From an uncultured Bacteroidales bacterium (lineage in GTDB: Bacteria; Bacteroidota; Bacteroidia; Bacteroidales; UBA932): a DNA stretch of 37,133 bases. The stretch lies in contig CALVCB010000017.1 of NCBI GenBank assembly GCA_944325965.1, positions 1-37,133 of the forward strand. Reading direction: 5' to 3'. The position numbers and the translations under genes are program-made. Each line of letters begins with the position of its first letter. Within the stretch, counting starts at the first letter, position 1. The notes below the pieces were generated by a model. The model ran no database searches and was not told the origin of the DNA. It was given only the letters and a program-made list of their open reading frames with translations. This document shows positions 18,203 to 36,835 of the stretch, in pieces.

Positions 18203-20596
18203 TTACAGTTTCATTTCAGGAACAGGAGTGGCTTCATCGGGCCCCGGGGTTGCGTAATGAGGGTCGATGGCGCGGATATACACATCGCCGTCAGGAAGAA
18301 TACGCACATCAAGAGGCACAATCGTAGTTCCGAGCTTGTTTATGGTCTGTGCGGTCTCGCTGAGATCCTTCTTCTCGATTCCGGCAGGATTGAGAGGCGG
18401 GACATTCCCGTTGAAGAATGCCGTACACCACCATCTTCCCTGCTTGTCCTGGAAAGGAGTGCCGTGGCCGAGGAAGCGCCCTACGAAACGTCTTTCGCTG
18501 TAAGGGCCGGTAATCTTGTCCGCTGTACAGTAATAGAGGTTATATGAACCTTTCCTGCCCTGGTCTGTGGACCATGCCGTACCGAAGAACACATATTTGC
18601 CTCCTATCTTCATGATAGTCGTGCCTTCATGTCCGATCTTCCTGTCTGCGGGGTCGATACGCACCTGCTCGCCCACACCGGAGAATCCGTCATTGACAGG
18701 GACGACATATCCGTTCCCGTGGGCAAGATACCATTTCCCGTCATCGTCCTTGAAAAGGGACGGGTCATGGCGCTTGTTGAAAGCCTCGAGGTTTGTAAAT
18801 TTCCACGGTCCCATGATATTGTCACCTTCGGTTACGGCAAGGGTGCTGACAGCAGAAGGACAATGTACCATGACCCAGTTCTTTCCTGTCCAATGTATCT
18901 CCGGGGCCCAGAGACGGGAACCGTTACCCTTGGAGCGGTTTACTTTTAAAGGCAGGTCATCCGTAGAATACGGGGAGCCGAGATATTCCCACTCGACAAG
19001 ATTGCTGCTTTTCCAGATTCGGAGCTGGTTTCCCACTATACTGCTGTCTCCAAGGCCAGTGTTGAATTTGTCAGTCTGCTCCCTCGGCTCATTCTCATTG
19101 GGTGTAGTCCCTGTAAGATAGTATGTGCCGTCCGGTCCGAGGACTATATAAGGATCACGGATCCAGCCCGGCTTGACAAGTACAGCCTCCTGGTGGAGGT
19201 CTATCTTGTTGTTGAACGGAATATCCATGTCGGCACCGGTATCCCCCTGCTCTTTCATCCATTTTTCAAGTTCGGCACGCATTTCCGCAATCTTTTCCTG
19301 GTATTTGGCCTCTCCGGCAAGATTGTGCATCTCCCACGGGTCTTTTTTTAGGTCATAGAACTCCACGGCAGGACGGTGTACGAAACGGTCGCACAGATAT
19401 GCAGCCCTTTCATCGGTCTCGGCAGCCCTCTTCCATGCAGGCCATACGCCGGTGATATTGTTCTCGGCCATCAGATGCTTCTCATGGTAGTCTTTTTCCG
19501 GAGTGAGGTTCAGGATAAGGGCATAACGCTCGTCACGTATACTGCGGATAGGGTACGGACGTCCTTCAGGATAGTTGTTGTGGATACCGTAGGCGTATTT
19601 CCTTGCTGTCTTCGACTCGCCGAAAAGAGCCTTCTTGAAACTGACACCGTCAAGTTCAGGACGCGATTCCCCGCCTGCGATATCAATAAATGTAGGAAGG
19701 AGGTCCTCATACTGGACAATGGCGTTGCTCTTGCTTCCGGGCTTGATCCTTGCCGGATAACGTGCCAGAAGGGCACTGCTCACCCCGGGGTTCCAGAGCG
19801 TCCATTTCCCGCCAGGGAACTGAGGGCCCTGCTCACCGAGGAAGAATACGATGGTATTGTCAAGCTTGCCGATTTCCTCAAGAGTCTGGAGAACGGATCC
19901 CACTTCATTGTCAAGCGCACGGAGCTCGGCCAGATAATGTGTCATGATCTCACGCATCTCAGGGCTGTCGACACAGTTTCCAGGTACTTTTATCTCATCT
20001 GGATCGAACTCACTCGGGTCACCCCATGTCCATGGGGCGTGGGTATTTATACTGCAAACGAACAGAAGGAACGGGTCATCGCTCCTGCTCATCCACTCCC
20101 TGATCCCGTCAGTGCTGTATGGGGCCTGTTTGGCCGTACAGCCCACAGTAAAGCCCGGAATCTCATCGAACTTGTAGACCGACTTCGGCCCCGGGTGATC
20201 TTTTCCCGTACGTCCGACACGATACCCTACCTCCGGCATGTACTCATTGACAGTCTTTGTCCCGGGAAAAGTGTTCTTGTGGTTCTGATATGAACCGTGG
20301 TGGGCCGGGTAAAGCCCTGTGTACATGGAGGCACGGATAGGGACACTCATTGCCTCTGAGGCATAATTGTGATAGAACTGTACCCCCTCATGCGCCAGCC
20401 TGTCTATGTTCGGAGTCTTGATATTCTGTCCGCCATAGCAGCCCAGTTCCGATGAAAGCAGGTCATCAGCCATGATGACCACGATATTAGGCCTCTGTTC
20501 AGGCTCCTGCGCCGGAGTCCGGTCTGCCGCACCGGCAGCGGCCGCAGGAACTGCGGCCACTGACAGGGCAGTTGCTTTAACTATGTTTCTGTTCAT
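18203..20596 (-). CDS. Sulfatase-GH43 fusion enzyme
   Basis: This 797-residue two-domain protein has a Sec signal ending about AGA-AD (residue 24). Residues 35-455 are an S1 sulfatase with D44-D45, a Ser-type signature S84-V-P-I-R88 then ASMYTG, and GKDH (131-134). The second metal motif reads GEQG (E255-Q256) in place of the usual DNG. Residues 472-797 form a five-bladed propeller of the GH43 type: D481 in WIRDPYIVLG, APEIHW (565-569), D611 in RHDPSLFKDDDGKWYL and E657 in GHEGTTIMKIGGKYVFFG fit the three catalytic acids. No stop or frame break separates the domains. It probably removes a sulfate and then a terminal sugar such as an arabinose, xylose or galactose residue; the linkage is unknown. 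Confidence 0.92.
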   Translation of the reverse strand: MNRNIVKATALSVAAVPAAAAGAADRTPAQEPEQRPNIVVIMADDLLSSELGCYGGQNIKTPNIDRLAHEGVQFYHNYASEAMSVPIRASMYTGLYPAHHGSYQNHKNTFPGTKTVNEYMPEVGYRVGRTGKDHPGPKSVYKFDEIPGFTVGCTAKQAPYSTDGIREWMSRSDDPFLLFVCSINTHAPWTWGDPSEFDPDEIKVPGNCVDSPEMREIMTHYLAELRALDNEVGSVLQTLEEIGKLDNTIVFFLGEQGPQFPGGKWTLWNPGVSSALLARYPARIKPGSKSNAIVQYEDLLPTFIDIAGGESRPELDGVSFKKALFGESKTARKYAYGIHNNYPEGRPYPIRSIRDERYALILNLTPEKDYHEKHLMAENNITGVWPAWKRAAETDERAAYLCDRFVHRPAVEFYDLKKDPWEMHNLAGEAKYQEKIAEMRAELEKWMKEQGDTGADMDIPFNNKIDLHQEAVLVKPGWIRDPYIVLGPDGTYYLTGTTPNENEPREQTDKFNTGLGDSSIVGNQLRIWKSSNLVEWEYLGSPYSTDDLPLKVNRSKGNGSRLWAPEIHWTGKNWVMVHCPSAVSTLAVTEGDNIMGPWKFTNLEAFNKRHDPSLFKDDDGKWYLAHGNGYVVPVNDGFSGVGEQVRIDPADRKIGHEGTTIMKIGGKYVFFGTAWSTDQGRKGSYNLYYCTADKITGPYSERRFVGRFLGHGTPFQDKQGRWWCTAFFNGNVPPLNPAGIEKKDLSETAQTINKLGTTIVPLDVRILPDGDVYIRAIDPHYATPGPDEATPVPEMKL

Positions 20597-21628: not shown

Positions 21629-23401
21629 CTACTGCCATCCCTTGTTCTGCACTATACCGGCATTGTACACCTCTGAATAAGGTATAGGCTGGTAAGGAGA
21701 AGCAAAATAACGTTTTTCCAACTCTACTGTCCTGTACTCTGTACCAGAGTCGGTTGTCGTAATTTCAACTCCGTTTACAGGGACGTTGATATGGTCCGCC
21801 CAATCCGGTTCAGCGGCATACCACCTCCTGAGGTCATAGTAGTAGTGGCCCTCAAAACTCAGCTCTATACGGCGCTGGAGACGGACATATTCATTGAACT
21901 TGTCCCTGTCATCCGCTATGACTTCGTCAAGGTACTTCGCACCGGCAGCTTTATTGTCACGAGTGAGGATACGACGGAGAGCATCCTTGGCGGTGAATCC
22001 ATATCCCTCAGGATCTCCTGACGGTCCCCATGCCATGTTGGCTGCCTCTGCATAATTAAGGAGAAGCTCTGGAAGGCCGTAGAGGATGTTGGCACGTGGA
22101 GTAGCAGTCTGGGCACCTGGAGTAAGGTTAACAGACATCCTCAAAGTCTTTTTAAGATAGTACCCTGACCTTGATGTCTTGGCAAGCGGATCATATGCAT
22201 CTATTCCCCCTTCTACAGTGTTAAGCTTATAATTGGAAGAACCAATGGTACCGCCATTATAACAAACGAATAGAGCCAGACGGGCATCCCTGTTTGCATA
22301 TGGATCAGCCGGATCATACGCAGTCCCGTCCTCCGTTATAGGATATCCGTTCTTGTCCGGAAATGCTTCAACAAAATTCTGGGAAACATTTATCAGGGCA
22401 TTACCATAAAGCTGAGGCGGGTAGTTATCGTTCTCGAAAGCACGGTTTCCGGTCACGACCTTTCCCCGCATAATCACATCATTGTTTTTCCAGTCCCTGT
22501 TATTAATCTGCGTAAAATAATATTCATCCCTTGATGACATTGCAGCATTGATTCCCCCGACGGCAACAATGGCTTCAGCAGCAGCAACGGCTGCCTGTTC
22601 CCATTTCTTGGCATCATCTCCTTCAGGATTGAATGCCGGGCTTGCGGCATACAGGAGTGCTCTAGCCTTTATTGCCTTTGCTGCAGCACCTGACAAGTGA
22701 TCCCTGAAAGAACTTCCATACACTGCATCTGTCCCGGAATACAGGTCCGGCAGTCGACAAGCCACCGTAGCACTGTCACAATCATCAATAATAGCCTTTA
22801 TACACTCTTCATACGTGGCGCGCGGGATATCCAGGTCATCCACTCCTACTTCAAGAATCCTGTCCCCTACAAGAGGAATACCCAGGACACTGCCATCTTC
22901 AGCTACACCTCCGAAATTCCTCAGCAATTCAGATATCCAATATGCCCGCATAGCATAAGCCTCACCTTTCAGACGCCAGAACATTTTGAGATTGTTTTCT
23001 ATGTCAACCTCGCTTTCGAAAGGGAAAAAACGTACCGGTGTACGCCATTCCGTATCATCATTCAGAACCATATGGCTCATGAATACATTGAGAGTACGAA
23101 TGTTCTTATAGCCGTTAGTCCATATATCCAGCGGATTCTTATTCGGCGACATCGCCCCGATTGCGCATCTGTAATACTCTCCGGACTGGTTTCTTATGAC
23201 AGCATTGTCAGTCATTACATCCATATTGTTGTCAAACAGTGTCGGGAGACTATTGTACACGCTATTCAGCGGGCCGCAGAAATATGCCGCCTCATCAAGT
23301 ATACTTTCGTCTCTGGTATTATCCGTTTCCGGTTCCAGAAAACTGCAGGAAACAGCACTAAAGACAGAAAGGGTAATACATATAATATCGTTTATTTTCA
23401 T
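21629..23401 (-). CDS. SusD/RagB-family lipoprotein (SusD-2)
   Basis: This 590-residue SusD-like lipoprotein has a signal ending SAVSC with Cys19. Family blocks are present: LKGEAYAMRAYWISELLRNFGG, AIKARALLYAASPAFNPEG, LLNYAEAANMAWG, LQRRIELSFEGHYYYDLRRWYA and YQPIPYSEVYNAGIVQNKGW. It partners the atypical SusC-2, encoded 28 bases upstream. Length and motif order match SusD-4 (593 residues), including the AVIRNQSG / AVTNSFNSG segment after a TDN motif near the N-terminus. Confidence 0.93.
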   Translation of the reverse strand: MKINDIICITLSVFSAVSCSFLEPETDNTRDESILDEAAYFCGPLNSVYNSLPTLFDNNMDVMTDNAVIRNQSGEYYRCAIGAMSPNKNPLDIWTNGYKNIRTLNVFMSHMVLNDDTEWRTPVRFFPFESEVDIENNLKMFWRLKGEAYAMRAYWISELLRNFGGVAEDGSVLGIPLVGDRILEVGVDDLDIPRATYEECIKAIIDDCDSATVACRLPDLYSGTDAVYGSSFRDHLSGAAAKAIKARALLYAASPAFNPEGDDAKKWEQAAVAAAEAIVAVGGINAAMSSRDEYYFTQINNRDWKNNDVIMRGKVVTGNRAFENDNYPPQLYGNALINVSQNFVEAFPDKNGYPITEDGTAYDPADPYANRDARLALFVCYNGGTIGSSNYKLNTVEGGIDAYDPLAKTSRSGYYLKKTLRMSVNLTPGAQTATPRANILYGLPELLLNYAEAANMAWGPSGDPEGYGFTAKDALRRILTRDNKAAGAKYLDEVIADDRDKFNEYVRLQRRIELSFEGHYYYDLRRWYAAEPDWADHINVPVNGVEITTTDSGTEYRTVELEKRYFASPYQPIPYSEVYNAGIVQNKGWQ

Positions 23402-23429
23402 GTCAGTATAATTTCAATATTCCATAGTG

Positions 23430-26400
23430 TCAGAAAGAGAATGAAAGGCCTCCTGTTATAGTCGTTGCCAAAGGGAAATCACCGACGCCAGCATTAAGGC
23501 TCTCCGGATCAAGATCCTTTATTTTCGAAATGGTAAACAGGTTTGTTCCTCTAACAAAGAACTTCAGCATATTCAGACCTATTTTCTTTGAGGCTTTATA
23601 TGGTAGAGTGTAACCGAATTCTACATTGCGAAGTTTGAAATAGCCCCCGTTCACAACCCAATAATCTGAATCAACAAAATTGTTCGTAGAACTGTCAGCC
23701 CTGAGAACAGGATGAGGATTTCCATTCGGCAGACCGGTATATACCACATTTGAATATTTCCTGTCTCCATAGATCTGATAATACTTATTCGTCAGCATCC
23801 TGTCAAATCCGGCAAGTCCGTATCCGAGAATATCAAGATTGAAACCTTTATATTTCAGACTGACAGTAATTCCGTATGATACGGAAGGCTGCACATTGGC
23901 TATAACATCACGATCTCTTTCATCGATTATACCGTCACTGTTTATATCCCGGTATTTTAAGTCTCCAGGATATACTTTACCGAACGTCTGTTTCGGAGAA
24001 GCATCTATATCAGCCTGATCCTTGAACGTACCTATTACCTGATAACCTTTTGTATCACCGTCCCTGCGCACCTTTGCAAGAGCTCCCAATTCATCAGGCC
24101 ATTCAATATCCGCTTCCCTGGTAACCTCGGAATAACCATAGGCAAAGTTACCTCCAACTGTCATCTGGAAATCCCCGAAACGTTTTGTATAATAAAGCTC
24201 GGCTTCGGCTCCCTGCGCAAGATATTCCTTATAATTATACCATACCAATGCACCACCCTTGCCGCTTACCCCAGGTGTAATATCCGTAAGGTTAGCAAGG
24301 CCTCCATCCAATACATTCCTGAAATACCCTACAGATCCACTGAACGAATGGTCGAAAAATTCAAAATCGACACCGGCATTGAACTCATGACTTTTCTGGA
24401 ACCCGATATTCGGATTGCCTGTCTGGTTGAAATTTACTATATTATTGAATGATGTAAACGGATATGTCCCATTTACAGCCCATTCCGTCCTGTAGTAATA
24501 GTTAGAAACGATTCCCTGCTCTGTATAGGAAGTAGAGCCAAGAATACCGTATGATGCCCGGAGTTTGAGGAAATCCACCCAGTCAACATTTTCCATAAAT
24601 GAATTTTCTGACATAATCCATCCGGCACCTACAGTAGGGAACACACCGAATCTTTTATCAGGGGCAAAGCTTGGAACACCAACACAATTCAAGCTTACAT
24701 CCACGACATAAGTCTTGTCGTACATATAGTTGGCCCATATCCCGGCATTGACACGCCTTAAACTGTGGATCTGGTCGTTAAAGTCCTGCTGCTGCATGAA
24801 ATATACTGCAAGTGCAGAAATATCGTGCTTCCCGATTTCCCTGTCATAATTGACAGTGGTATTAAAAGCCCAGTTCCGGTTTGTAGCAACAGCGCCTCTT
24901 GCTTGTTTGGTATTCGGATTATCATATCCCCATTGTTTATAAGAAGCTATTTCATCATCGGGACCGCCAATAAGCTCGTAGACAGAATATCCTCCGTCTT
25001 TTTTCGCCGAATACTCATTGTAAAGGTCAAACGTAACACTCGGACGAATGCTAAGACCTCTCACCCATTTGTTGAGATCGACATCAAGAGTAAAATCCGA
25101 CTGCAGATAGGAATACTCTCTTTCAACATATCCGTTACGGGTCAGAATTCCCAACGGGTTATTCTGTGCTACCGAAGAACCGCCCAACACATATTCCTCA
25201 GGGCTTCCGACCATATCTCCCGGGATTGTAATAGGATACTCATTAGGCCTTGTTTCAGACAAAGAATTTATAAAGTTCTGTGTAGAAGTATTCGGCCATG
25301 TCTTCATCTGTATAGCAGCATTGAGGCCAACCCTCAAAGTTATAAAGTCATAGATGGTATTATCTATGTTTCCTCTCGCAGTAATGACCTGGTCCCTATT
25401 GGGATAATCGGTATACTTTTCCAGGCCTCCGTTTGTCTGGAATCCTACATTCAGAAAATACTGTGTATTCTTGCTTCCTCCGGTAAGCTGTGCATTGGCC
25501 CTGGTAATTGTCATAACATCGTTCAGGAACTGGTCATAAAAATCCACATCAGGATAAAGCAGAGGATTCGAACCATCATATTTGGACGGATCATATATAG
25601 GCGCCCTGCCTACATTTGCCAAAGCCTGGTTATACATTTCCGTATATTGTCTGGAATTGAGATACTGCGGAAGCCTGGTAGGAACCTCAACTCCAGACTG
25701 GACGTTAACGCGCACCCCATTCTCATATGCCTTGCCTCGTTTTGTCTTTATCATGAGGATTCCGTTTGTCTGGATACCTCCGAAAAGAGACTTCAGGGAA
25801 GCATCTTTAAGAAGCTGTACACTCTCTATGGTCTCCGGTTCAATATAATCAAGGGAGCGTTCCACTCCATCAATCATTATGATAGGTGTACCACCATTTG
25901 GTGCACGCACAAACCCGTTGTATGAAGTAAATCCAGGCACCAGGGCATTGTTCATTATGTACAGACCGCCAAGCCTTCCGCCCAAAGCATCCCACAAGAA
26001 CATCGTAGGGTTTTTCTCAAGTTCCTCCCCATCTACCTTAGAGTAAGATCCAACTACACGGTTTTCTGAAATATAATCACCGGTAACCGTATAAAGCTGA
26101 TGAGCCTCATCTTCATATTCAGAAAGTTTTTCCAGTTCAATAACTGCATGTCCGTCCCTAATATCAGATGCACTTATTGTTTTTGAACCATATCCGTCGG
26201 CTTTGACTTTCAGTACATCTATAGGAAGGATCGAAATGGTAGATACTCCCTGATCATCAGCAATATAAGTATGTCTGTTTCTTGATGAGGATATTTCCGA
26301 ATACCCTATAGGTGTGCCGGCCTCATCAACAACCTCTATTGTAACAGTACTTCTTGACTGTCTTCTGTTCTTGTTCTGTCCTGATACCGGCTCAATAGAG

Positions 26401-26459
26401 CAGATAAATACCATTGTCAGAAACAAGGTGCAGAGATATTTATGTATATGAAATTTCAT
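23430..26459 (-). CDS. SusC/RagA-family TonB-dependent transporter, atypical TonB-box type (SusC-2)
   Basis: This 1009-residue SusC-type transporter has a signal peptide ending VSG-QN (about residue 27) and a carboxypeptidase-regulatory-like domain (about 38-110). The plug carries LWDALGGRLGGLYIMNNA, TPIIMIDGVERSLDYIEPETIESVQLLKDASLKSLFGGIQTNGILMIKTKRG, and the barrel ends GGLSFSF. The VVVGYG segment is missing; residues 121-141 read QLYTVTGDYISENRVVGSYSK. The plug IYIRG motif is also degenerate (GFVRAPNGG). The loop DINSDGIIDERDRD resembles those in the other SusC proteins. It shares its terminal ISKIKDLDPESL-GG pattern with SusC-4. It is encoded 18 bases after SusD-1. Confidence 0.93.
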   Translation of the reverse strand: MKFHIHKYLCTLFLTMVFICSIEPVSGQNKNRRQSRSTVTIEVVDEAGTPIGYSEISSSRNRHTYIADDQGVSTISILPIDVLKVKADGYGSKTISASDIRDGHAVIELEKLSEYEDEAHQLYTVTGDYISENRVVGSYSKVDGEELEKNPTMFLWDALGGRLGGLYIMNNALVPGFTSYNGFVRAPNGGTPIIMIDGVERSLDYIEPETIESVQLLKDASLKSLFGGIQTNGILMIKTKRGKAYENGVRVNVQSGVEVPTRLPQYLNSRQYTEMYNQALANVGRAPIYDPSKYDGSNPLLYPDVDFYDQFLNDVMTITRANAQLTGGSKNTQYFLNVGFQTNGGLEKYTDYPNRDQVITARGNIDNTIYDFITLRVGLNAAIQMKTWPNTSTQNFINSLSETRPNEYPITIPGDMVGSPEEYVLGGSSVAQNNPLGILTRNGYVEREYSYLQSDFTLDVDLNKWVRGLSIRPSVTFDLYNEYSAKKDGGYSVYELIGGPDDEIASYKQWGYDNPNTKQARGAVATNRNWAFNTTVNYDREIGKHDISALAVYFMQQQDFNDQIHSLRRVNAGIWANYMYDKTYVVDVSLNCVGVPSFAPDKRFGVFPTVGAGWIMSENSFMENVDWVDFLKLRASYGILGSTSYTEQGIVSNYYYRTEWAVNGTYPFTSFNNIVNFNQTGNPNIGFQKSHEFNAGVDFEFFDHSFSGSVGYFRNVLDGGLANLTDITPGVSGKGGALVWYNYKEYLAQGAEAELYYTKRFGDFQMTVGGNFAYGYSEVTREADIEWPDELGALAKVRRDGDTKGYQVIGTFKDQADIDASPKQTFGKVYPGDLKYRDINSDGIIDERDRDVIANVQPSVSYGITVSLKYKGFNLDILGYGLAGFDRMLTNKYYQIYGDRKYSNVVYTGLPNGNPHPVLRADSSTNNFVDSDYWVVNGGYFKLRNVEFGYTLPYKASKKIGLNMLKFFVRGTNLFTISKIKDLDPESLNAGVGDFPLATTITGGLSFSF

Positions 26460-26477
26460 GTCAGTTTTTTCTATATG

Positions 26478-28244
26478 TTATTCCCATCCAGGATTCTGCT
26501 TGAACAAAGGACCGATATATGTGTCATCCCTAAGAATCGGATAAAGATTATGTTTTTCTTCATATACCCTCTGAAGGACAGGCGTATCCGGATACTCATA
26601 TCTGAAGCCTGTAGGATATACATCAGGATCATAACCTGATTTAAGTTTTACAATATTCACTGCATAAATGTCGTTGTCATAATCCGGATCTGTTCCTATA
26701 AGCCACCTGCGTATGTCATAAAAGCGGTGATCTTCGAAACAAAGCTCTACCCGACGCTCATTGCGAACCCTTTCAATAAACCTTTCAGTAGTCTGATATT
26801 CCGGAGGAAGATCGGCAATGCCACCTCTGTTCCTGACCAGATTTAGAGCTTCAAGGGCAGAGTATGTGCTTCCGTTTCTCTTTTCATCTATTCCCCATCC
26901 GGCTTCTGCAGCAGCTTCAGCGAAATTAAGATACAGTTCAGACATCCTTATATATGGCCATACTTGGTCTAGAGCCGTATTCCAGTCTTTCCCCATCCAT
27001 TTCTTCACGTATGTACCCGTCTTGGTATATCCAGCCATGATTTCTCCTGAAGAATATGAAATATCACCACCTCCCATTGTCGATGATCCTTCTTCCTGGT
27101 GGTACAGGTTCATTTTCCTGTTGCCGAACACTGTACACTGATTGTATATGATATCATGCTCGAATCTTATACCACGGTCCACGTATGGATTCTGATCATT
27201 ATAGCCTGATTTCGGATCAGATATAGGATAGCCGTTAGTCATATCATAGCAGTCAATGAACTTCTGGTTAGCAGACACGCCATATGTTCCGGTCAGTTTT
27301 CCTGGAGGCCTGATGGTAATTTTATAAGCTTCCGACCCCCATGCAATTTTAGCCCTTCTTCCGAACAGCACTTCTTTAGTATATATACTATAGTTCACAC
27401 CTTTGAAAATATCATAATAATTCTCCCCTGGTGCGAGCTGGTAGCCGTTCGACTCGGCTGCCTTGATAGCCTCATCTGTAGCAATCGCAGCTTCCTCCCA
27501 CAAATCTTCACGCACTTCACCGCCTTCCAGGGTTGCCTGAGGACTGGCTGCATAAAGCAGTGCTCTTGAACGCATGGCAAGAGCCGCAACACTTGTTGGA
27601 TGCTGCCATTCTGAATCCGGAATTACCGGCTCAAGATATTTTGCAGCCTCGGCAAAATCATTCGCGATATTCAGATAAGTAGTCCTCATATCATCCCTTT
27701 CCCTGTCCAGATTCTCGGAAAGATCTTCGAACGGCTCATAAAAATATGGCATTCCTCCCCAACGGCGGCATATTTCAAAATATGCAAATGCCCTGTAAAA
27801 ATAGCAGGTACCGATTATTTTATTCCGTCCAGCCTCATCTCCAGGGTACATATCTATATGCTTAAGCCCCATATTGGATATCCGGACATATTTCCACATC
27901 TTCTCCCAAACACCTGTATTGCACATTACAGATCTTCCGTTCGTGATCATAGTCATATAATCACCTGCGGCAGACAACAGACATGGCACTGTAAACTGCA
28001 TGGTACACATGGAGTTGTCTGCGACATCATCCCATGTTCCATGAGGGTTGGCCCCGGCCTGAAGATATTTGACCATAGTATTCTGTGTCATCCAGTCTAT
28101 ATACAGTTCAAAATTGTTCGCGTTCCCGAAAACTTCTTCAAGCGTAAGACCGTCGGTCTCTTCCCTTTTGTCAAGATAATCGCATGAGACTACAGACATA
28201 AAGAGAGATAACGATAATATCGTATATTTAAACAAAGCTTTCAT
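26478..28244 (-). CDS. SusD/RagB-family lipoprotein (SusD-1)
   Basis: This 588-residue SusD-like lipoprotein has a signal ending SVVSC with Cys21, followed by DYLDKREE. The helical core includes IIGTCYFYRAFAYFEICRRWGGMPYF and ALAMRSRALLYAASPQ. The C-terminal blocks are YLNFAEAAAEAGWG, RNERRVELCFEDHRFYDIRRWLIG and a terminal FKQNPGWE. It is encoded 19 bases after SusC-1 and should form a SusCD complex with it. It is the positional counterpart of SusD-3, though their N-terminal halves have diverged clearly. Confidence 0.93.
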   Translation of the reverse strand: MKALFKYTILSLSLFMSVVSCDYLDKREETDGLTLEEVFGNANNFELYIDWMTQNTMVKYLQAGANPHGTWDDVADNSMCTMQFTVPCLLSAAGDYMTMITNGRSVMCNTGVWEKMWKYVRISNMGLKHIDMYPGDEAGRNKIIGTCYFYRAFAYFEICRRWGGMPYFYEPFEDLSENLDRERDDMRTTYLNIANDFAEAAKYLEPVIPDSEWQHPTSVAALAMRSRALLYAASPQATLEGGEVREDLWEEAAIATDEAIKAAESNGYQLAPGENYYDIFKGVNYSIYTKEVLFGRRAKIAWGSEAYKITIRPPGKLTGTYGVSANQKFIDCYDMTNGYPISDPKSGYNDQNPYVDRGIRFEHDIIYNQCTVFGNRKMNLYHQEEGSSTMGGGDISYSSGEIMAGYTKTGTYVKKWMGKDWNTALDQVWPYIRMSELYLNFAEAAAEAGWGIDEKRNGSTYSALEALNLVRNRGGIADLPPEYQTTERFIERVRNERRVELCFEDHRFYDIRRWLIGTDPDYDNDIYAVNIVKLKSGYDPDVYPTGFRYEYPDTPVLQRVYEEKHNLYPILRDDTYIGPLFKQNPGWE

Positions 28245-28263
28245 TTCCTTACTGTTACTTCAA

Positions 28264-31200
28264 TTAAAAACCGATTTGGAGGCCCAAAGTCACTGTCCTT
28301 GTCATCGGATAATAACCATTAGTTACATTGCTTCCGCCGTCACTTGCCTCCGGATCGGCCAAAGGATATCCCGGGGCCCATGTAAACAGGTTATTGGCTC
28401 TGGCATATACAGAAAATTTGGAAAGACCTATTTTCTGTACTATGCGTTTAGGCAGATTATATGCAACATTAATATTTTTCAGACGAATATACGAAGCATC
28501 ATAGGCAGCTACGGACCTTGCCTGTCCGTCACCTATATTATTATGGATCCTGTTAGTATCGAAATGGTAAGCAGGATACCTGGCGTCTCTATTATCAGGG
28601 CTCCATGAATCGAGCTGATATTCAAAAACCTGATTGGACAGACGGTGAAGCGGCCATGCAAAATTGTCCACAACCGTCCTTGTAAGGTGGCTCGCAGCCT
28701 GGAACATCATGTCAAACTCAAAATTCTTGAAAGTAAAGCCCAGAGAAAAAGAATAATTATAAAGCGGATATGTCTGTGCGTATCCCAGAGCATATATGTC
28801 ATTACTATCAATAATTCCATCGCCGTTAAAATCCACATACTCTGTATCGCCCAATCCCATAAGGCCTCCGCCATAACGTGCTGCAGTCATCGCAACGTCC
28901 GCATCCTGGATCCAGCCTGTGTGATGATAGCCGAACACCTGTCCTATACGGTGCCCTTCTTCCTTCAGATATACTGGCGTATACATAGGTTCATCCTTGG
29001 ATATGATACGGTTGTCACTGAAGCTCACAGCCGGCCGTGCCCATACATACCAATTGTCATCCGGAGAAGACCACTGGAATTTAAGTTCAATTTCGTATCC
29101 TTTTGTCCTTGTCTCTCCAAGATTCATTTTCTTAGGCTCAATTCCAGCATAAGTAGGCACAGACTGGCGAGAAAGCAATATACCTGTCCTGTGTTCATCG
29201 AAGAAATCCATGGAAAGCACAAACATGTCATTCTTAAGGAAACTCAATTCAAAACCGATATCACGCTTGGTGGCTATCTCCCATCCGGCATTTACATTAG
29301 CGGCTTTTTCTTCTACTATAGGAGTCCTGTCCGGACCGGCTATACCAGGAAGTCCCGGAGTATAGACATCTCCAGACCCGGTTACAAACGAAGATGAAAA
29401 CAGCCATCTGTCACCGCCGGAAGCATCACTTCCCACCTGTCCCCATGAAGCACGGATCTTGGCCCGGTTCACTACCTTGCGCAAAGGCTGGAAGAATTTC
29501 TCGTTATGGAGATTGTATCCGACAGCGAATGACGGGAACAATCCATATTGCTTTGAACTTGCAAACTGCTCTGATCCGTTATATCCTAGATTCGCTTCAA
29601 ACAAATACTTATTGGCATAGTCATACGTTACTCGTGCGGCAATACCCTGTTCATAACTTGGAAACTGCGCATTGCGCATGGTCTTGCGTCGCTGTCCGAC
29701 TATAAGGCCCGTAACCCCATGCTTGCCGAATGTCCTGTTATAGTTGAGGGAAACCTCATAGTAATAATTCTTCGTAGGATATGGATCACCATCCATAGAA
29801 TCAGTATTCACTGTAGGAATTTCTTCCGGATCCTCCCGGCCTGTTTCTGTTCTTCCCAATCTTCTGACCCATGTCAGGTCAGTATTCAGTTTATATGTGA
29901 TGGCACTGTACTCTATGGTTTTCGTCCATCTGCTAATATTATTATAGGAAGCCTGGATCTTTGCGCTCAATCCCTCCGTTATAAAGCTCAGATCCTGATT
30001 CAAACGTATACTTAAATTAATATTGCTTGTCTTGACAGTTCTGCTTCCGCTGAAACTGTTCGCTACCATTGGGTTCTCTGCATTTGTTATATCGGTTGAC
30101 CCGAGTCTCCATCCCGTTTCATCAGGATGAACCGTATCAGGATACTGCTCCAGAACATCTGCCGGATAAAAAGGAACTCCATCCATAGGTCCAAGTGTAA
30201 AAATAGGACGGAAACGACGCTGTGTATTAGTCTCGAACGGAGCATTCCTAAAACCTATATAACCGCCCGCATCAATTGAGACAACCGTGGTCTTGGTGAC
30301 ATTCATATCCACATTGAACCTATAGTTATAACGGTCGTATTTGTATGACGGATCATAAAGTTCATTCTTAATCGTATTGATGATGTCTCCGTCATGCATA
30401 TAAGAAAGCGAAGCGAAAACACGAGCGAAATCTGTACCTCCCGATACATTCAGATTGTATTTATGCTGTATACCGTTTTTAAGCATGACATCCTGCCAGT
30501 TCGTGTTGGTATACACATACGGCATATCCTGCACCCTATAATGCTCTATAACCTCATCCGAAAGCATCGATCCCCAGTCATTATCGTTTTTTCTGGCTTC
30601 ATTTATAATCAAGGCAGTAGTATAACTGTCCATTGGCGCAATCATATTGATAGGCTGTTTTACGCCTACTTCAGATGAGAAATTCACCTTGACTTCTCCT
30701 GCCTTACCTCTTTTAGTCGTAATCAGGATTACTCCGTTAGCTCCACGTACACCGAAAACAGCAGTTGCAGATGCGTCTTTCAATACTGACATTGTCTCGA
30801 TTTCAGAAGGATCGATATTGTTATAATCACGCTCTACTCCATCCACCAGTACCAAAGGATCTGAACTAACCCACGATGACACCCCGCGGATCATTATTTT
30901 AGAGACTTCACCGCCCGGCTGTCCGCTATTCATAACCACAGACACACCTGGTATCTGGCCTTGAAGAGCAGAAGCGATTGATGTAGTATTTGTCCCGGCA
31001 AGGTCATCCCCCTTCACCTGGGTAATCGCAGCCACCGAACTTTCTTTCTTCTGTACACCGTAACCGACGACCACCACTTCATCAAGATTCTGCGCATCCT
31101 GGGCAAGGGCAACATTGATGGTGGCATTACCGGTTACAGGAAACTTCTGCGTCTCGAAACCCAGACAAGAGAAGACCAGCTCCGGTGCATCCCCGGTAAC

Positions 31201-31464
31201 CTCTATCGAATATTCACCGTCCAGGTTGGTCGACACACCATTCGTAGTATTCTCCACGAAGACATAGACACCGACGAGAGGGACTCCCGATTCGTCGGTC
31301 ACAATTCCGTTTACAGTCATAGCCCCACCCTGCTGATCCGCACTCTGGGCAGATGCCGACCAGTCCGACATAAAGACCGGGAACAGCAAGACAAAACCCA
31401 TTGCAAGGACATGGCAGAGACTATTCTGCAATACATGCAACACTTTAACACGAAAATCATTCAT
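28264..31464 (-). CDS. SusC/RagA-family TonB-dependent transporter (SusC-1), first gene of the large operon
   Basis: This 1066-residue canonical SusC has a long signal region ending ASA-QS (about residue 40) and a carboxypeptidase-regulatory-like domain (about 47-120). The TonB-box segment is LDEVVVVGYGVQKKESSV (about 127-144). The plug has LQGQIPGVSVVMNSGQPGG, IMIRGVSSWVSSDPLVLVDGVERD and LKDASATAVFGVRGANGVILITTKRG. The barrel includes DFNGDGIIDSNDI and ends LGLQIGF. It follows the divergent control region and a predicted promoter about 80 bases upstream. It is closest in plan to SusC-3. No STN domain is present, so control by a FecR/sigma pair contacting this transporter is not indicated. 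Confidence 0.95.
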   Translation of the reverse strand: MNDFRVKVLHVLQNSLCHVLAMGFVLLFPVFMSDWSASAQSADQQGGAMTVNGIVTDESGVPLVGVYVFVENTTNGVSTNLDGEYSIEVTGDAPELVFSCLGFETQKFPVTGNATINVALAQDAQNLDEVVVVGYGVQKKESSVAAITQVKGDDLAGTNTTSIASALQGQIPGVSVVMNSGQPGGEVSKIMIRGVSSWVSSDPLVLVDGVERDYNNIDPSEIETMSVLKDASATAVFGVRGANGVILITTKRGKAGEVKVNFSSEVGVKQPINMIAPMDSYTTALIINEARKNDNDWGSMLSDEVIEHYRVQDMPYVYTNTNWQDVMLKNGIQHKYNLNVSGGTDFARVFASLSYMHDGDIINTIKNELYDPSYKYDRYNYRFNVDMNVTKTTVVSIDAGGYIGFRNAPFETNTQRRFRPIFTLGPMDGVPFYPADVLEQYPDTVHPDETGWRLGSTDITNAENPMVANSFSGSRTVKTSNINLSIRLNQDLSFITEGLSAKIQASYNNISRWTKTIEYSAITYKLNTDLTWVRRLGRTETGREDPEEIPTVNTDSMDGDPYPTKNYYYEVSLNYNRTFGKHGVTGLIVGQRRKTMRNAQFPSYEQGIAARVTYDYANKYLFEANLGYNGSEQFASSKQYGLFPSFAVGYNLHNEKFFQPLRKVVNRAKIRASWGQVGSDASGGDRWLFSSSFVTGSGDVYTPGLPGIAGPDRTPIVEEKAANVNAGWEIATKRDIGFELSFLKNDMFVLSMDFFDEHRTGILLSRQSVPTYAGIEPKKMNLGETRTKGYEIELKFQWSSPDDNWYVWARPAVSFSDNRIISKDEPMYTPVYLKEEGHRIGQVFGYHHTGWIQDADVAMTAARYGGGLMGLGDTEYVDFNGDGIIDSNDIYALGYAQTYPLYNYSFSLGFTFKNFEFDMMFQAASHLTRTVVDNFAWPLHRLSNQVFEYQLDSWSPDNRDARYPAYHFDTNRIHNNIGDGQARSVAAYDASYIRLKNINVAYNLPKRIVQKIGLSKFSVYARANNLFTWAPGYPLADPEASDGGSNVTNGYYPMTRTVTLGLQIGF

Positions 31465-31654: not shown

Positions 31655-31719
31655 AACATTATTGCACATAAACAGACAATCCGCACGGTCCGGACGCATC
31701 AACAGATGCAAAAAAGAAT

Positions 31720-31772: not shown

Positions 31773-34697
31773 ATGGATAACAGAATACTATTAGCCACGC
31801 TGGCAATCCCGGCCGTATCAAACGGCGTCTGCAATGCAGCAGAAAGCCAGCCGAAAGAACAGGATAAAAATAACAGGCCGAACATAGTCATCATGATTGC
31901 AGATGACTGCACTTACCGTGATCTCGGATGCTACGGCAGCAAGAATTCAAAGACACCCAATATCGACAGGCTCGCACAGGAGGGAGTAAGGTTCACCAAC
32001 TTCTTCCAGGCGGCCCCGATGAGCTCTCCTACACGGCACTGTATGATGACCGGGCTGTATCCGGTAAAGAGCGGTGCATACCCGAACCATACCTTTGCAC
32101 AGGAAGGCGTAAAGTCCGTAGTACAGTATCTCCGGAATGAAGGCTACAGGGTTGCCCTTCAGGGAAAGAGGCATATCGCCCCTAAAGAGATATTCGACTA
32201 CGAGTACCTCAGCCCGGACAATGTGGATGTGGATACAAGCCTGATCAGACCGTTTATCGCAGATGCCAAGGCGAAAGGGCAGCCGTTCTGTCTTTTCGTC
32301 TGCACACACCAGCCGCATACACCATGGAACAAAGGGGACGCAAGCCAGTTCGACGCCGACAAGCTGATTCTCCCGTCTTATTATGTGGACACGCCCCAGA
32401 CAAGGGAAGGGCTGACAAGATATTATGCAGAAATCAGTTTCATGGATTCTGAACTGGGCTCGGTGCTCGACCTGCTGGACGAGACAGGCGTAGCGGACAA
32501 CACAGCCATGTTCTTCACATCCGAGCAGGGCAATTCCCTGCCTTTCGCCAAGTGGACATGCTACGATATGGGGCTCCAGACAGGAATGATAGCACGCTGG
32601 CCAGGTGTCACCGAACCTGGCAGCACATGCGATGCAATAGCTGAATATGTGGATATTGTCCCTACATTCATCGAAATTGCAGGAGGAGAACAGCCTGAAG
32701 GGCTCGACGGCAAAAGTTTCGTAGGACTGCTTAACGCGAAGGAAGACAAGATAAAGGACTGGTCATTCGGGCTGCAGACATCCAGGGGCATCATAGGCGG
32801 ACCGGAATACTACGGAGTGCGTTCAGTTCGCAACGACAGATACGTATATATAAAGAACCTGACACCTGAGGCAACATTCCAGTGTACCACGACATCCGAG
32901 AAAGACAAGATATGGATGTCCTGGGTCGAAAAGGCCAAGACCGACCCCAAGGCTGCAGAGCTTGTGAACAAATACCAGCACCGTCCTGCCGAAGAACTCT
33001 ATGACAGGATCAAGGATCCTGACCAGCGGCACAACCTCATCGGGAAAAAGAAATATGAACCGGTAAGGGAGGAAATGGCCGCCGTACTCGAATCCTGGAT
33101 GAAGAGCCAGGGAGACCTCGGACAGGAAACCGAAATGGAGGCCAAGGAGCACCAGGCATCCGTCCTGGCAAAGAAGAATGCCAAAAAGACGGCAAAAGGC
33201 TTCGTATTTGAAGACTTCAACGGAAACGGGAAGAAAGACTCCAATGAAAAAGGCATTCCGGGCGTGGCTGTATCGGACGGGATGAACATATCCACCACCG
33301 ACGGGAACGGGTACTACGAGCTCAAAGTGAGGGACCACTGCGTAATATTCGCAATAAAGCCAAAAGGATACATCTCCCCGGCAGATGAATACAATCTTCC
33401 TCAAAGCTGGTACATTCACAAACCGGCAGGATCACCGCAGCTGCAATACAAGGGTTCAGCACCGACCGGGAAACTTCCGCAGTCCCTAGACTTCCCGATG
33501 CACAAATATGAAGACCCCGAAAATTTCAGTTTCTTTGCATTCGGAGACCCGCAGCCTTACTCGAAAACAGAGGTGGAATACTTCCGCAGGATGATTGTGG
33601 ATGAAGCCAACGACCTCGAAGGGATATCATTCGGCATAAGCCTCGGCGATGTAGTAGGAGACAAACTCGACCTGCATCCATTCTACAGGGAAGCCGCAGC
33701 AGGTATGGGCATCCCGTGGTACAACGTCATCGGGAACCATGACAGGAACTATGACTGCAAGGAAGAAAAATACGCCAATGAGACGTTCGAATCCAATTTC
33801 GGTCCTTCAACATACGCGTTCCGGTACGGGGATACGCATTTCATTGTCCTCGATGACATTTTCATGAACAATGCCCCGAAGGCCAACCCATATAAGGGAG
33901 GATTTTCTGAAGACCAGTTCAGCTTCATAGAAAACTACATGAAGCTGGTAGGGAAGGATGAACTGGTCGTACTTGCCTATCATATACCTTTATATTATAA
34001 GGAAGGACAGTTCATCCCTGAGCACAGGGAAAGGCTGTTCGAAATACTGAAAGGGCACAATGTACTGGGTCTCAGTGCTCATACCCATATTCAAATGCAG
34101 TTTCATTACGGGAATGAAGCAGGATGGGACGGTCCGGTGAAATTCCATGAGTACAATGTAGGAACTACCAACGGGGACTGGTACTCCGGCAAGACAGACG
34201 TGAACGGCCTGCCTGACGCCACAATGAGGGACGGGACTCCGGCCGGCTATGCCATAATCAACATTGAAGGCAACAGATATTCCTTCAGATACAAGGCGGC
34301 AAGGGAATCCGATGATTTCCAGATAAGGCTATATAATCCTGAAGTGGTCCCATACCGCCAGGGAGGCAAATATCCGCTGTACGCGAACTTCTTCATCGGG
34401 GACGTTGACGATACTGTGGAATTCAGGATCAACGGAGGGGAATGGAAAAAAATGAAGAGGGTCACTGACGAAGCGGACCCTACTTTCCTGAAACGCCTGT
34501 ATGAATGGGACAGCGCCGATACGGCAATGAAAGGCCGCAGGCCGAATTCTGTCCCTACAATGTGTACGCATTTGTGGAAAGCCACACTTGACAACACTCT
34601 GGAGCCGGGCACACACAGCATTGAAGTACGTGCGACCGACATGTTCGGCAACATCCATACGGCATCAGGATCATACAGAACCGAAAAACCAGAGTAG
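31773..34697 (+). CDS. Sulfatase-metallophosphoesterase fusion protein
   Basis: This 974-residue protein has a Sec signal ending about CNA-AE (residue 22). Residues 35-455 are an S1 sulfatase: D44-D45, Ser-type signature S84-S-P-T-R88 then HCMMTG, GKRH (131-134) and SEQG (E251-Q252) instead of SDNG. After a Lys-rich linker (460-475) comes a MetallophosN-like beta domain (about 476-575, GFVFEDFNGNGKKDSNEKG). A calcineurin-like phosphoesterase core (about 585-775) follows with FGDPQ (D592), LGDVVGD (D626), GNHD (N655, H656), AYHIP (H737) and SAHTH (H770, H772). A MetallophosC-like tail ends the protein. Both active sites look intact. I chose the ATG before the signal peptide; a longer frame from 31662 adds 37 unlikely residues. 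First gene of the plus-strand operon. Confidence 0.92.
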   Translation: MDNRILLATLAIPAVSNGVCNAAESQPKEQDKNNRPNIVIMIADDCTYRDLGCYGSKNSKTPNIDRLAQEGVRFTNFFQAAPMSSPTRHCMMTGLYPVKSGAYPNHTFAQEGVKSVVQYLRNEGYRVALQGKRHIAPKEIFDYEYLSPDNVDVDTSLIRPFIADAKAKGQPFCLFVCTHQPHTPWNKGDASQFDADKLILPSYYVDTPQTREGLTRYYAEISFMDSELGSVLDLLDETGVADNTAMFFTSEQGNSLPFAKWTCYDMGLQTGMIARWPGVTEPGSTCDAIAEYVDIVPTFIEIAGGEQPEGLDGKSFVGLLNAKEDKIKDWSFGLQTSRGIIGGPEYYGVRSVRNDRYVYIKNLTPEATFQCTTTSEKDKIWMSWVEKAKTDPKAAELVNKYQHRPAEELYDRIKDPDQRHNLIGKKKYEPVREEMAAVLESWMKSQGDLGQETEMEAKEHQASVLAKKNAKKTAKGFVFEDFNGNGKKDSNEKGIPGVAVSDGMNISTTDGNGYYELKVRDHCVIFAIKPKGYISPADEYNLPQSWYIHKPAGSPQLQYKGSAPTGKLPQSLDFPMHKYEDPENFSFFAFGDPQPYSKTEVEYFRRMIVDEANDLEGISFGISLGDVVGDKLDLHPFYREAAAGMGIPWYNVIGNHDRNYDCKEEKYANETFESNFGPSTYAFRYGDTHFIVLDDIFMNNAPKANPYKGGFSEDQFSFIENYMKLVGKDELVVLAYHIPLYYKEGQFIPEHRERLFEILKGHNVLGLSAHTHIQMQFHYGNEAGWDGPVKFHEYNVGTTNGDWYSGKTDVNGLPDATMRDGTPAGYAIINIEGNRYSFRYKAARESDDFQIRLYNPEVVPYRQGGKYPLYANFFIGDVDDTVEFRINGGEWKKMKRVTDEADPTFLKRLYEWDSADTAMKGRRPNSVPTMCTHLWKATLDNTLEPGTHSIEVRATDMFGNIHTASGSYRTEKPE

Positions 34698-34774: not shown

Positions 34775-36835
34775 ATGAAAACAAAAAGCATCAAATACAT
34801 GGGCCTGATGGCGGCAGCCCTGCCTGCCGCCGTCTCATGCTCACCGGAGAAGGGGGCAAGGCCGAACATAGTGGTGATACTTGCCGATGACATGGGATAT
34901 TCCGACCTCGGATGTTACGGGGGTGAAATTGAAACACCGAATCTGGATAACCTTGCAGAGAACGGGATCAGATACAGGCAGTTCTACAACAATGCCAGGA
35001 GCTGCCCCTCAAGAGCGGTCCTGATGACGGGGTTGTACCCCCACCAGGCCGGGATGGGATGGATGGCGGCCGCAGACCTGCAGACGCCGCAGTACCAGGG
35101 GCATCTGAACAACAACTGCGTAACCATAGCAGAAGTGCTCAAGGAAGCCGGATACGGCACCTACATGTGCGGGAAATGGCATCTGAGCAGTGACAGGCAG
35201 AACCAGGGGAAAGTAGAGGAGGCATGGCCTGCACAGAGAGGGTTCGACCGTTTTTACGGTATACCGTCAGGAGCTTCGAACTATTTCAAGACTACAATGT
35301 ACAATGAGAATACTCCTTCCCCTACACCGGAGGGCTTCTATATAACCACGGCACTCAGCGACAGCGCAGCCACGTTCATAAGCCGCCACGACTACAAGGA
35401 GAAGCCGCTTTTCATGTACCTGGCATTCAACGCGCCGCACTGGCCGCTCCATGCACCGCAGCAGACAATAGACAAATATGCAGAAAGGTACATGGCAGGA
35501 TGGGACAGGCTCAGGCAGGAGCGTTTCGAAAGGCAGAAGGCGATGGGCCTGTTCAGACAGGACGTCGTCCTTTCGCCACGGGACAAGGATGTACAGGCAT
35601 GGGACTCCCTCACACCTGAGGAGCAGAAGGAATTTGCAATGCGCATGGCCATCTATGCGGCGCAGGTAGACCTGATGGACCAGGGCATAGGCAAAGTAGT
35701 GCAGGCATTGAAAGAGACAGGCCAGTTCGACAATACAATCATAATGTTCATGTCCGACAACGGGGCCTGCGCCGAGTTCATCAGCGGAGGGAAACGCAAG
35801 GCTGTGGACGGTAAGGAAGACACGCATGAAAGCTACCGTATAAACTGGGCAAACCTCAGCAGCACCCCTTACAGGGAGTACAAGCACTATACGAACGAAG
35901 GCGGTATCGCCACCCCTCTGATAGTCAGCTGGCCGGAAGGCATCGACAGCAGTCTTGACGGGACATTCATAGACGAATACGGATATTTTGCGGACATCAT
36001 GGCCACCTGTGTGGACGTTGCCGGGGCAGAATACCCGGAAACATACAGGGGCAATGAGATACATCCTATGGAAGGGGTCAGCCTTGTCCCGAATTTTTCA
36101 GGCGGGAATACAGGCAGAGGCATGACTTTCTGGGAACATGAAGCCAACATTGCCGTCAGGGACGGCAAATGGAAGATTGTCCTGAAGACAGGCGAAGGCA
36201 ACACGTTCAAGCCGGAGAACATCGAGCTTTACGACATGGAGGCCGACCCTACCGAAATGAACAATCTCGCGGCATCAGACCCTGAAAGGACGGCAAATAT
36301 GTTCAAGGCCTGGGAAGAATGGGCGGAAAGGGTACATGCATATCCTCTGGACACCCGCTTCTACGGAGAACGCCAGGCTGCCTACAAAAGGGTGATAAAC
36401 GGAGAATTCGACGACAACTTCGGAGGATGGAGTGTCAAAGAGCCGGAAAACGGGGGCATCTCCTTCAGTATCGATACCGCATCCATGATGTCAGGGACTA
36501 AATGCGCCAGGGCGGACATTGCCGCAGAGGGTAGCAAGGACGCCGACGCATTCCTCAAATGGAACTTCCCGAGCGGCGGGATGAAGAAGGTCAGAGTCGC
36601 ATTCGACTACAAGGCGGACGGTGCCAACACATTGTCCCTCAAGATAGAAAAGGCAGGGGCCCCGGCAGAAAAACTGTTCTCGGAGACAGTTGCCATAGCT
36701 CCTGATGGAGGACAGTTCGACACAGGTGAGATCAGCATACCGGAGGACGGGCGCTGGCAGGTGGTATTCTACTTCGGCAAATCGTCCAAAGGCAGAATCT
36801 GGATAGACAATGTAAAAATGGACTTCCGCGAATAA
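34775..36835 (+). CDS. S1-family sulfatase lipoprotein with C-terminal carbohydrate-binding-like domain
   Basis: This 686-residue lipoprotein has a signal ending AAVSC with Cys22. Residues 28-525 are an ARSA-like S1 sulfatase: D38-D39, Ser-type signature S76-C-P-S-R80 followed by AVLMTG, GKWH (K134, H136) and SDNG (D328, N329). A C-terminal module (about 540-686) begins INGEFDDNFGGWSV and ends GRIWIDNVKMDF, the pattern of CBM4/9/22-type beta-sandwiches. That would tether the enzyme to its glycan. Membrane anchoring plus a binding module suggests action at the cell surface or on large fragments. It is the second gene of the plus-strand operon and resembles the sulfatase at 14172-15866, which lacks the binding module. 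Confidence 0.92.
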   Translation: MKTKSIKYMGLMAAALPAAVSCSPEKGARPNIVVILADDMGYSDLGCYGGEIETPNLDNLAENGIRYRQFYNNARSCPSRAVLMTGLYPHQAGMGWMAAADLQTPQYQGHLNNNCVTIAEVLKEAGYGTYMCGKWHLSSDRQNQGKVEEAWPAQRGFDRFYGIPSGASNYFKTTMYNENTPSPTPEGFYITTALSDSAATFISRHDYKEKPLFMYLAFNAPHWPLHAPQQTIDKYAERYMAGWDRLRQERFERQKAMGLFRQDVVLSPRDKDVQAWDSLTPEEQKEFAMRMAIYAAQVDLMDQGIGKVVQALKETGQFDNTIIMFMSDNGACAEFISGGKRKAVDGKEDTHESYRINWANLSSTPYREYKHYTNEGGIATPLIVSWPEGIDSSLDGTFIDEYGYFADIMATCVDVAGAEYPETYRGNEIHPMEGVSLVPNFSGGNTGRGMTFWEHEANIAVRDGKWKIVLKTGEGNTFKPENIELYDMEADPTEMNNLAASDPERTANMFKAWEEWAERVHAYPLDTRFYGERQAAYKRVINGEFDDNFGGWSVKEPENGGISFSIDTASMMSGTKCARADIAAEGSKDADAFLKWNFPSGGMKKVRVAFDYKADGANTLSLKIEKAGAPAEKLFSETVAIAPDGGQFDTGEISIPEDGRWQVVFYFGKSSKGRIWIDNVKMDFRE

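Follow-up and report, generated by a model that had tools for sequence, protein, structure and literature searches.

An open reading frame joining an S1 sulfatase to a calcineurin-like phosphoesterase in an uncultured Bacteroidales bacterium

Sulfatases joined to a second enzyme in one protein have been described before. The available part of PMC6388578 records fusions of S1_7 with GH10 or GH32 and of S1_15 with GH29, and PDB entry 6hr5 is a rhamnosidase/sulfatase with two catalytic modules in one protein. Phosphodiesterases, in turn, are known from SusC/SusD loci: the phosphate utilisation systems of Flavobacterium combine SusCD (PusCD) with phosphodiesterases and are induced by phosphate shortage (PMC8115612, accessible text), and phosphodiesterases are also present in 576 susCD loci that lack known glycan enzymes, sulfatases and peptidases (PMC6499787, accessible text). 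Here, we analysed a stretch of 37,133 nucleotides (hereafter the window, at its full length; positions 1 to 37,133 of contig CALVCB010000017.1) from an uncultured Bacteroidales bacterium, in which one gene on the forward strand (31773-34697) encodes a 974-amino-acid protein made of an S1 sulfatase followed by a phosphoesterase of the MetallophosN/Metallophos/MetallophosC type. The protein is like the sulfatase-glycoside hydrolase fusions recorded in those sources in being a glycan-degrading protein with two catalytic modules, but its partner module is a phosphoesterase, whereas theirs is a glycosidase. The Flavobacterium systems, as far as the accessible text describes them, have SusCD with secreted phosphodiesterases, as is also seen round some stand-alone relatives of the phosphoesterase studied here, and differ in being without a sulfatase. 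The architecture is new but of a recognised sort; sulfatases joined to other hydrolases are already recorded. No characterised sulfatase-phosphoesterase enzyme was found in literature searches of open-licence full text, and within these searches the claim of a preliminary description of this DNA, that no characterised enzyme joins the two superfamilies, holds.

The fusion is real. A single frame runs from ATG to stop (a TTG at 31662 is an alternative upstream start that would give 1011 amino acids), and Pfam finds in it, every one above its cut-off and in this order, Sulfatase (PF00884, residues 36-304, 3.8e-40, 138.5 bits against a cut-off of 25), SGSH_C, MetallophosN (PF16371, residues 489-551, 33237-33425, 1.9e-11), Metallophos (PF00149, residues 608-773, 8.8e-8, 33.2 bits against a cut-off of 21.5) and MetallophosC (PF16370, residues 793-960, 34149-34652, 5.6e-46); a match to SdrD_B at the beginning of the phosphoesterase half stays below its cut-off. 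The protein begins with a probable signal peptide (about residues 1-23, 31773-31841), judged by eye from a hydrophobic N-terminus followed by Ala-Glu-Ser, and the relative at locus L024 begins alike. Next come the sulfatase module (residues 31-455, 31863-33137), a linker (residues 456-476, 33138-33200) with 19 of its 21 residues identical in L024, and the phosphoesterase half as a whole (residues 477-974), whose metallophosphoesterase core spans residues 592-773 (33546-34091). These results agree with the preliminary description, which had read both enzymes in one open frame; S84, D592, D626, N655, H656, H737, H770 and H772, which it had named, all stand at the positions it assigned to them. 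A stop or frameshift in the linker, which it had proposed as the finding that would speak against a fusion, is excluded: the same continuous frame and linker recur in the genomes G343 (loci L014 and L023) and G068 (L009 and L024), and the fusion is therefore not an assembly error.

The fused form occurs in three genomes of one genus, namely the window genome (G000), an uncultured Bacteroidales bacterium (G343:C8, L023, 99% identical) and Candidatus Cryptobacteroides avicola (G068:C8, L024, 84% identical). As judged from their substitutions, both halves are under purifying selection, and the linker is conserved. Against L024, the sulfatase half (31-455) has 81.4% identity and a ratio of amino-acid-changing to silent substitution rates (dN/dS) of 0.113, and the phosphoesterase half has 87.8% identity and a dN of 0.073, given without a ratio as its silent sites are saturated; against L023, dN/dS is low in both halves (0.056 and 0.069). 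Searches of the genus genomes (sets of 151 and 380) listed the fusion in G000 and G068, those of the family (398) in G000, G343 and G068, and those of the order (344), phylum (345) and class (169) in G000 alone, and among the matches listed in the wider searches there was no further fusion beyond these three genomes. The sets overlap, the listing of matches stopped at E 1e-60 to 1e-80, and the candidates scored per genome were at most five (151-genome genus set), two (380-genome genus set, family, order and phylum) or seven (class), so that with such strict limits and so few best candidates further fusions can have been missed. In a collection of named genomes, two of seven loci held the fusion (L023 and L024). 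A second apparent fusion, in G994:C124 (open frame 1071), was rejected, as its sulfatase stops at a TAA and the phosphoesterase begins 18 bases on, and a longer match in G679 (28-478, with one TAG) is a stand-alone sulfatase of 463 amino acids. The contig G109:C23 starts inside a 60% identical MetallophosC domain, and the contig end hides whether that protein is fused.

The N-terminal half is a complete sulfatase of the Ser type, as had been proposed, on the evidence of its formylglycine motif (S84-S-P-T-R88, 32022-32036), Pfam match, fold and invariant residues. Its best folds in Foldseek were sulfamidase (4miv, 2.7e-26) and the lambda-carrageenan sulfatases S1_8A (9bb9), B and C; by sequence comparison, S1_8A was the best solved sequence, with 5g2v and sulfamidase close behind. 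In 19 aligned sulfatase rows, residue 84 was Ser in 8 and Cys in 11, and D44, D45, R88, K132, H134, H182 and K260 were invariant in all 19; we take D44, D45, K132, H134, H182 and K260 to be the calcium and catalytic residue set of S1 sulfatases. The fused sulfatase has E251-Q252 at a position where S1 sulfatases usually have Asp-Asn/His. Judging from the motif, S84 would be converted to formylglycine by an anaerobic sulfatase-maturating enzyme, and the half would hydrolyse a sulfate ester. The window genome holds a TIGR03942 maturase gene (G000:C4:52214-53362, 496.9 bits against a cut-off of 349.45), and this profile scored above its cut-off in 2 of 14 control genomes. The accessible part of PMC8406133 reports that BpS1_8 of Bacteroides plebeius desulfates arabinogalactan proteins, after which a GH43_24 enzyme can act, and that it was expressed as an S76C variant, which makes it a Ser-type enzyme too. 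With this S1_8/sulfamidase branch (9bb9, 4miv and, as far as that source shows, BpS1_8) the fused sulfatase shares its fold, its formylglycine motif and a glycan-utilization setting with GH2 and GH43 enzymes; it differs in its second catalytic domain, in E251-Q252 and in an identity to solved sulfatases of only 22-28%.

The C-terminal half has the PF00149 fold and the complete dimetal site of the calcineurin-like metallophosphoesterases, with Gln at one position where His is usual. None of the seven residues D592, D626, N655, H656, H737, H770 and H772 varies in an alignment of 35 rows (2 fused and 33 stand-alone proteins). Motif I is D592-P-Q594, and its Gln is likewise present in all 35 rows. 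The statement of the preliminary description that all metal ligands are visible can be kept for the completeness of the site and the placing of the residues, but needs amending in two respects: H656 of the GNH motif is by its fold presumably the catalytic His and not a metal ligand, and Q594 had been overlooked. A profile search gave weak matches to purple acid phosphatases, GpdQ (2zo9) and Rv0805, and the best folds in Foldseek were Rv0805 (4.0e-11), GpdQ (1.8e-7) and lupin PPD1 (9.5e-7). GpdQ and Rv0805, both class III phosphodiesterases, have His at the motif I position (D-x-H). The window phosphoesterase resembles them in core fold and in what we take to be the shared D, D, N, H, H, H set, and departs from them in D-x-Q instead of D-x-H, in extra N- and C-terminal beta domains and in an identity of 13-15%; we call it GpdQ-like in fold and do not file it as a GpdQ/class III member because its motif I is not D-x-H. 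AlphaFold modelled this half alone with a mean predicted local distance difference test score (pLDDT) of 94.0 and a predicted template modelling score (pTM) of 0.93; for the whole protein the values were 90.0 and 0.61, with a mean pLDDT of 52 at residues 461-470 of the linker.

Stand-alone phosphoesterases of the same module order are found across the sampled relatives in Bacteroidota. They share the module (31-65% identity) and the invariant site with the fused half, but have their own likely signal peptides (by eye); some lie beside SusCD and GDPD (glycerophosphodiester phosphodiesterase) genes and few beside sulfatases. We surveyed 45 stand-alone loci, which include two each from G515, G994 and G1103 and leave out L085 (a copy of L088), L086 (G237, a short contig) and the same-genus loci L083, L147 and L149. 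In 15 loci a SusC gene is found no more than 5 kb from the stand-alone gene, and in 7 a GDPD gene, or in 9 when L115 and L120, with GDPD at the far end of the gene row, are added; Pfam confirms GDPD in four of these neighbours. Probes for alkaline phosphatase, purple acid phosphatase, PafA-like phosphatase and GDPD, taken from neighbours in these same loci, found one of these types within 6.5 kb in 13 of the 45, which is suggestive only, and none of them in ten sulfatase-only loci (133.6 kb). The window genome also encodes a 744-amino-acid MetallophosN-Metallophos-MetallophosC-GDPD protein near SusC/SusD genes (L151 8619-10853, G000:C4), and in a more distant subfamily (L157) a phosphoesterase is followed by GDPD (Pfam), downstream of a SusD-like gene (by eye). 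In G178 (L088 4442-10776), a stand-alone phosphoesterase gene stands in a row with purple acid phosphatase and alkaline phosphatase genes (Pfam). An 891-amino-acid protein of G542 (L160 1483-4158) has GHL10 (glycosyl-hydrolase-like) and DUF4985 followed by MetallophosN and MetallophosC (Pfam), and the stand-alone phosphoesterase of G1252 (L149 350-2820) overlaps an undecaprenyl-phosphate-translocase-like gene (PF04018) at that gene's end.

Taking both halves with their setting, we consider it probable that the fusion gene encodes an exported bifunctional, two-site enzyme of a sulfated-glycan locus, in which the sulfatase and the phosphate-(di)esterase act on one substrate or in one compartment. 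The fold and the kin of the dimetal, class III phosphodiesterase-like half suggest that it would hydrolyse a phosphate ester, more likely a diester than a monoester, and the substrate may be of the glycerophosphodiester sort, carried on the glycan or released with it; the fusion would then tie two steps of one pathway together. Among the three roles that the preliminary description had offered, the one in best agreement with the data is removal of sulfate together with hydrolysis of a phosphate ester or diester, given the Rv0805 and GpdQ folds, the GDPD neighbours and the GDPD fusion in the same genome. More tentatively, and less likely than the bifunctional enzyme itself, the protein may be a dual esterase for a natural glycan substituted with sulfate as well as with phosphodiesters such as phosphoglycerol. 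If so, the fusion would point to a polysaccharide with two kinds of charged group, as yet undescribed, where these bacteria live, and one enzyme would clear away both blocks ahead of the GH43 and GH2 enzymes. When glycan-utilization loci are interpreted, attention goes to glycosidases and sulfatases, and phosphate esters are seldom taken into account; the fused gene and a relative with separate genes give a testable lead that some sulfated glycans may also carry phosphate, and the fusion provides a way to approach the function of the widespread MetallophosN/C family.

Several observations weigh against the bifunctional enzyme. No solved protein was close in sequence to the phosphoesterase half (phmmer, up to E 0.1), its Foldseek list (E up to 0.001) includes unrelated proteins matched over beta domains, and open-licence literature searches found no assayed activity for the MetallophosN/C phosphoesterase family. 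The relative orientation of the domains is uncertain at the pTM of the whole model, which gives no ground for claiming a substrate channel; a separate phosphoesterase, without a signal peptide, could in principle start at M455 (33135). Among the stand-alone loci, the nine with GDPD were drawn from three genera, in 32 of 45 the probes met no phosphatase gene of their types up to 6.5 kb away, and such genes are only weakly enriched relative to the outer flanks (14 genes in 505 kb versus 1 in 146 kb), in a count that is flattered because some loci match themselves via their own probes. A sulfatase lies within 6.5 kb in only 5 of the 45, so that a tie to sulfated glycans is not general, and on the 5.7-kb contig of G1252 no glycan-locus gene was seen beside the stand-alone phosphoesterase.

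The chief rival to the bifunctional enzyme is a chance fusion that serves co-expression only, with both halves active on unrelated substrates, a sulfated glycan and an organophosphate used for phosphate supply; fusion would then give equal amounts and one export signal, and nothing more. We regard this as rather unlikely. In its favour, some stand-alone kin lie in SusCD-phosphodiesterase clusters like the phosphate-shortage systems described in the accessible text of PMC8115612, the 576 susCD loci of PMC6499787 (again from its accessible text) show that phosphodiesterases occur in such loci without known glycan enzymes, and the linker is weakly modelled at a whole-protein pTM of 0.61. However, this linker is conserved, and in a genome of the same genus (G1242) an unfused phosphoesterase gene already heads an equivalent sulfatase operon, which means that the phosphoesterase belongs to the locus even without the fusion. 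In addition, the other fusions of the locus and its kin (S1-GH43) combine enzymes that could plausibly act in the same glycan pathway.

The remaining alternatives concern the phosphoesterase half itself or the assembly. That this half has turned into a binding or structural module is improbable: beta-rich N- and C-terminal domains do flank the core, but all ligands are invariant and the core is 88.8% identical to that of L024 (residues 585-790). Still less credible is that it hydrolyses sulfate esters, making the protein a double sulfatase, a role also raised in the preliminary description. What speaks for it is the setting only, a sulfatase-rich operon, whereas fold and profile searches place it near phosphodiesterases and purple acid phosphatases, and the partners of the module include GDPD, so that this role is without support; we know of no calcineurin-like sulfatase family. 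The source assembly is fragmented (2.06 Mb in 109 contigs, 78% complete), which could suggest that assembly or sequencing had artificially joined two genes, but the probability of this is negligible, as the relatives G343 and G068 refute it with the same frame, in G068 at 84% identity.

With regard to origin, the fusion seems to be a product of module shuffling within a locus for the use of sulfated glycans. In G1242 the phosphoesterase is a separate gene (L147 9134-10702, 522 amino acids, 65.0% identical to the fused half), followed by a 685-amino-acid sulfatase and then by an 820-amino-acid S1-GH43 protein; the 685-amino-acid sulfatase is 60.6% identical to the 686-amino-acid S1 sulfatase that lies downstream of the fusion gene in the window (34775-36835, forward strand). 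In the phosphoesterase tree, the fused pair (window and L024) is sister to the G1242 stand-alone protein (99/94), with that of G1252 next (100/100); all belong to one genus. The G1242 sulfatase nearest to the fused one (49.8% identity) is joined to GH43, and in the sulfatase tree the fused half groups with this S1-GH43 sulfatase, two sulfatases of G679 and one of Kiritimatiellia (6 rows, 99/97). This grouping shows that one sulfatase clade occurs alone, with GH43 and with a phosphoesterase. Other genes vary in a like manner: the third gene of the L023 operon encodes a sulfatase only (490 amino acids, 71.6% identical to the sulfatase part of the 820-amino-acid S1-GH43 protein of G1242), which an 807-amino-acid S1-GH43 protein of G109 matches at 76.2%, and the other operon of the window has an S1-GH43 protein (797 amino acids) where G068 has a sulfatase alone (472 amino acids, 95% identical). 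Taken together, the phosphoesterase probably derives from a phosphoester-processing family and was at first a neighbouring gene, the state seen in G1242, before it became fused; alternatively, the join may have been lost in G1242. The window and the contig of the 99% identical relative hold GH2, GH43, S1-GH43, many sulfatases, an arabinofuranosidase-like gene and GH76, and from this locus our guess is a sulfated arabinogalactan-like glycan. The GH76 gene (L080 14310-15554), which in G343:C8 lies on the far side of the locus, does not suggest arabinogalactan and counts against that guess.

Further genes of the window lie on the reverse strand. Two SusC/SusD pairs (21629-31464) are divergent from the fusion gene, and beyond them lie the S1-GH43 gene (18203-20596), which encodes the second two-enzyme protein of the window, a GH2-family enzyme (16006-18165) and an S1 sulfatase (14172-15866). 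A GtaA_6_Hairpin/DUF5127/DUF4964 protein (11636-14164) stands amid the sulfatases and SusCD pairs. Kin of the S1-GH43 protein with 795-804 amino acids and an identical domain set were found in G1252 and G002. Further S1-GH43 proteins occur at L148 8164-10476, with a sulfatase of the same clade as the fused one, and at L147 12753-15215 and L083 540-2963 (G109), with a different sulfatase type. Since different sulfatase types carry GH43, the S1-GH43 pairing was gained or lost on more than one occasion.

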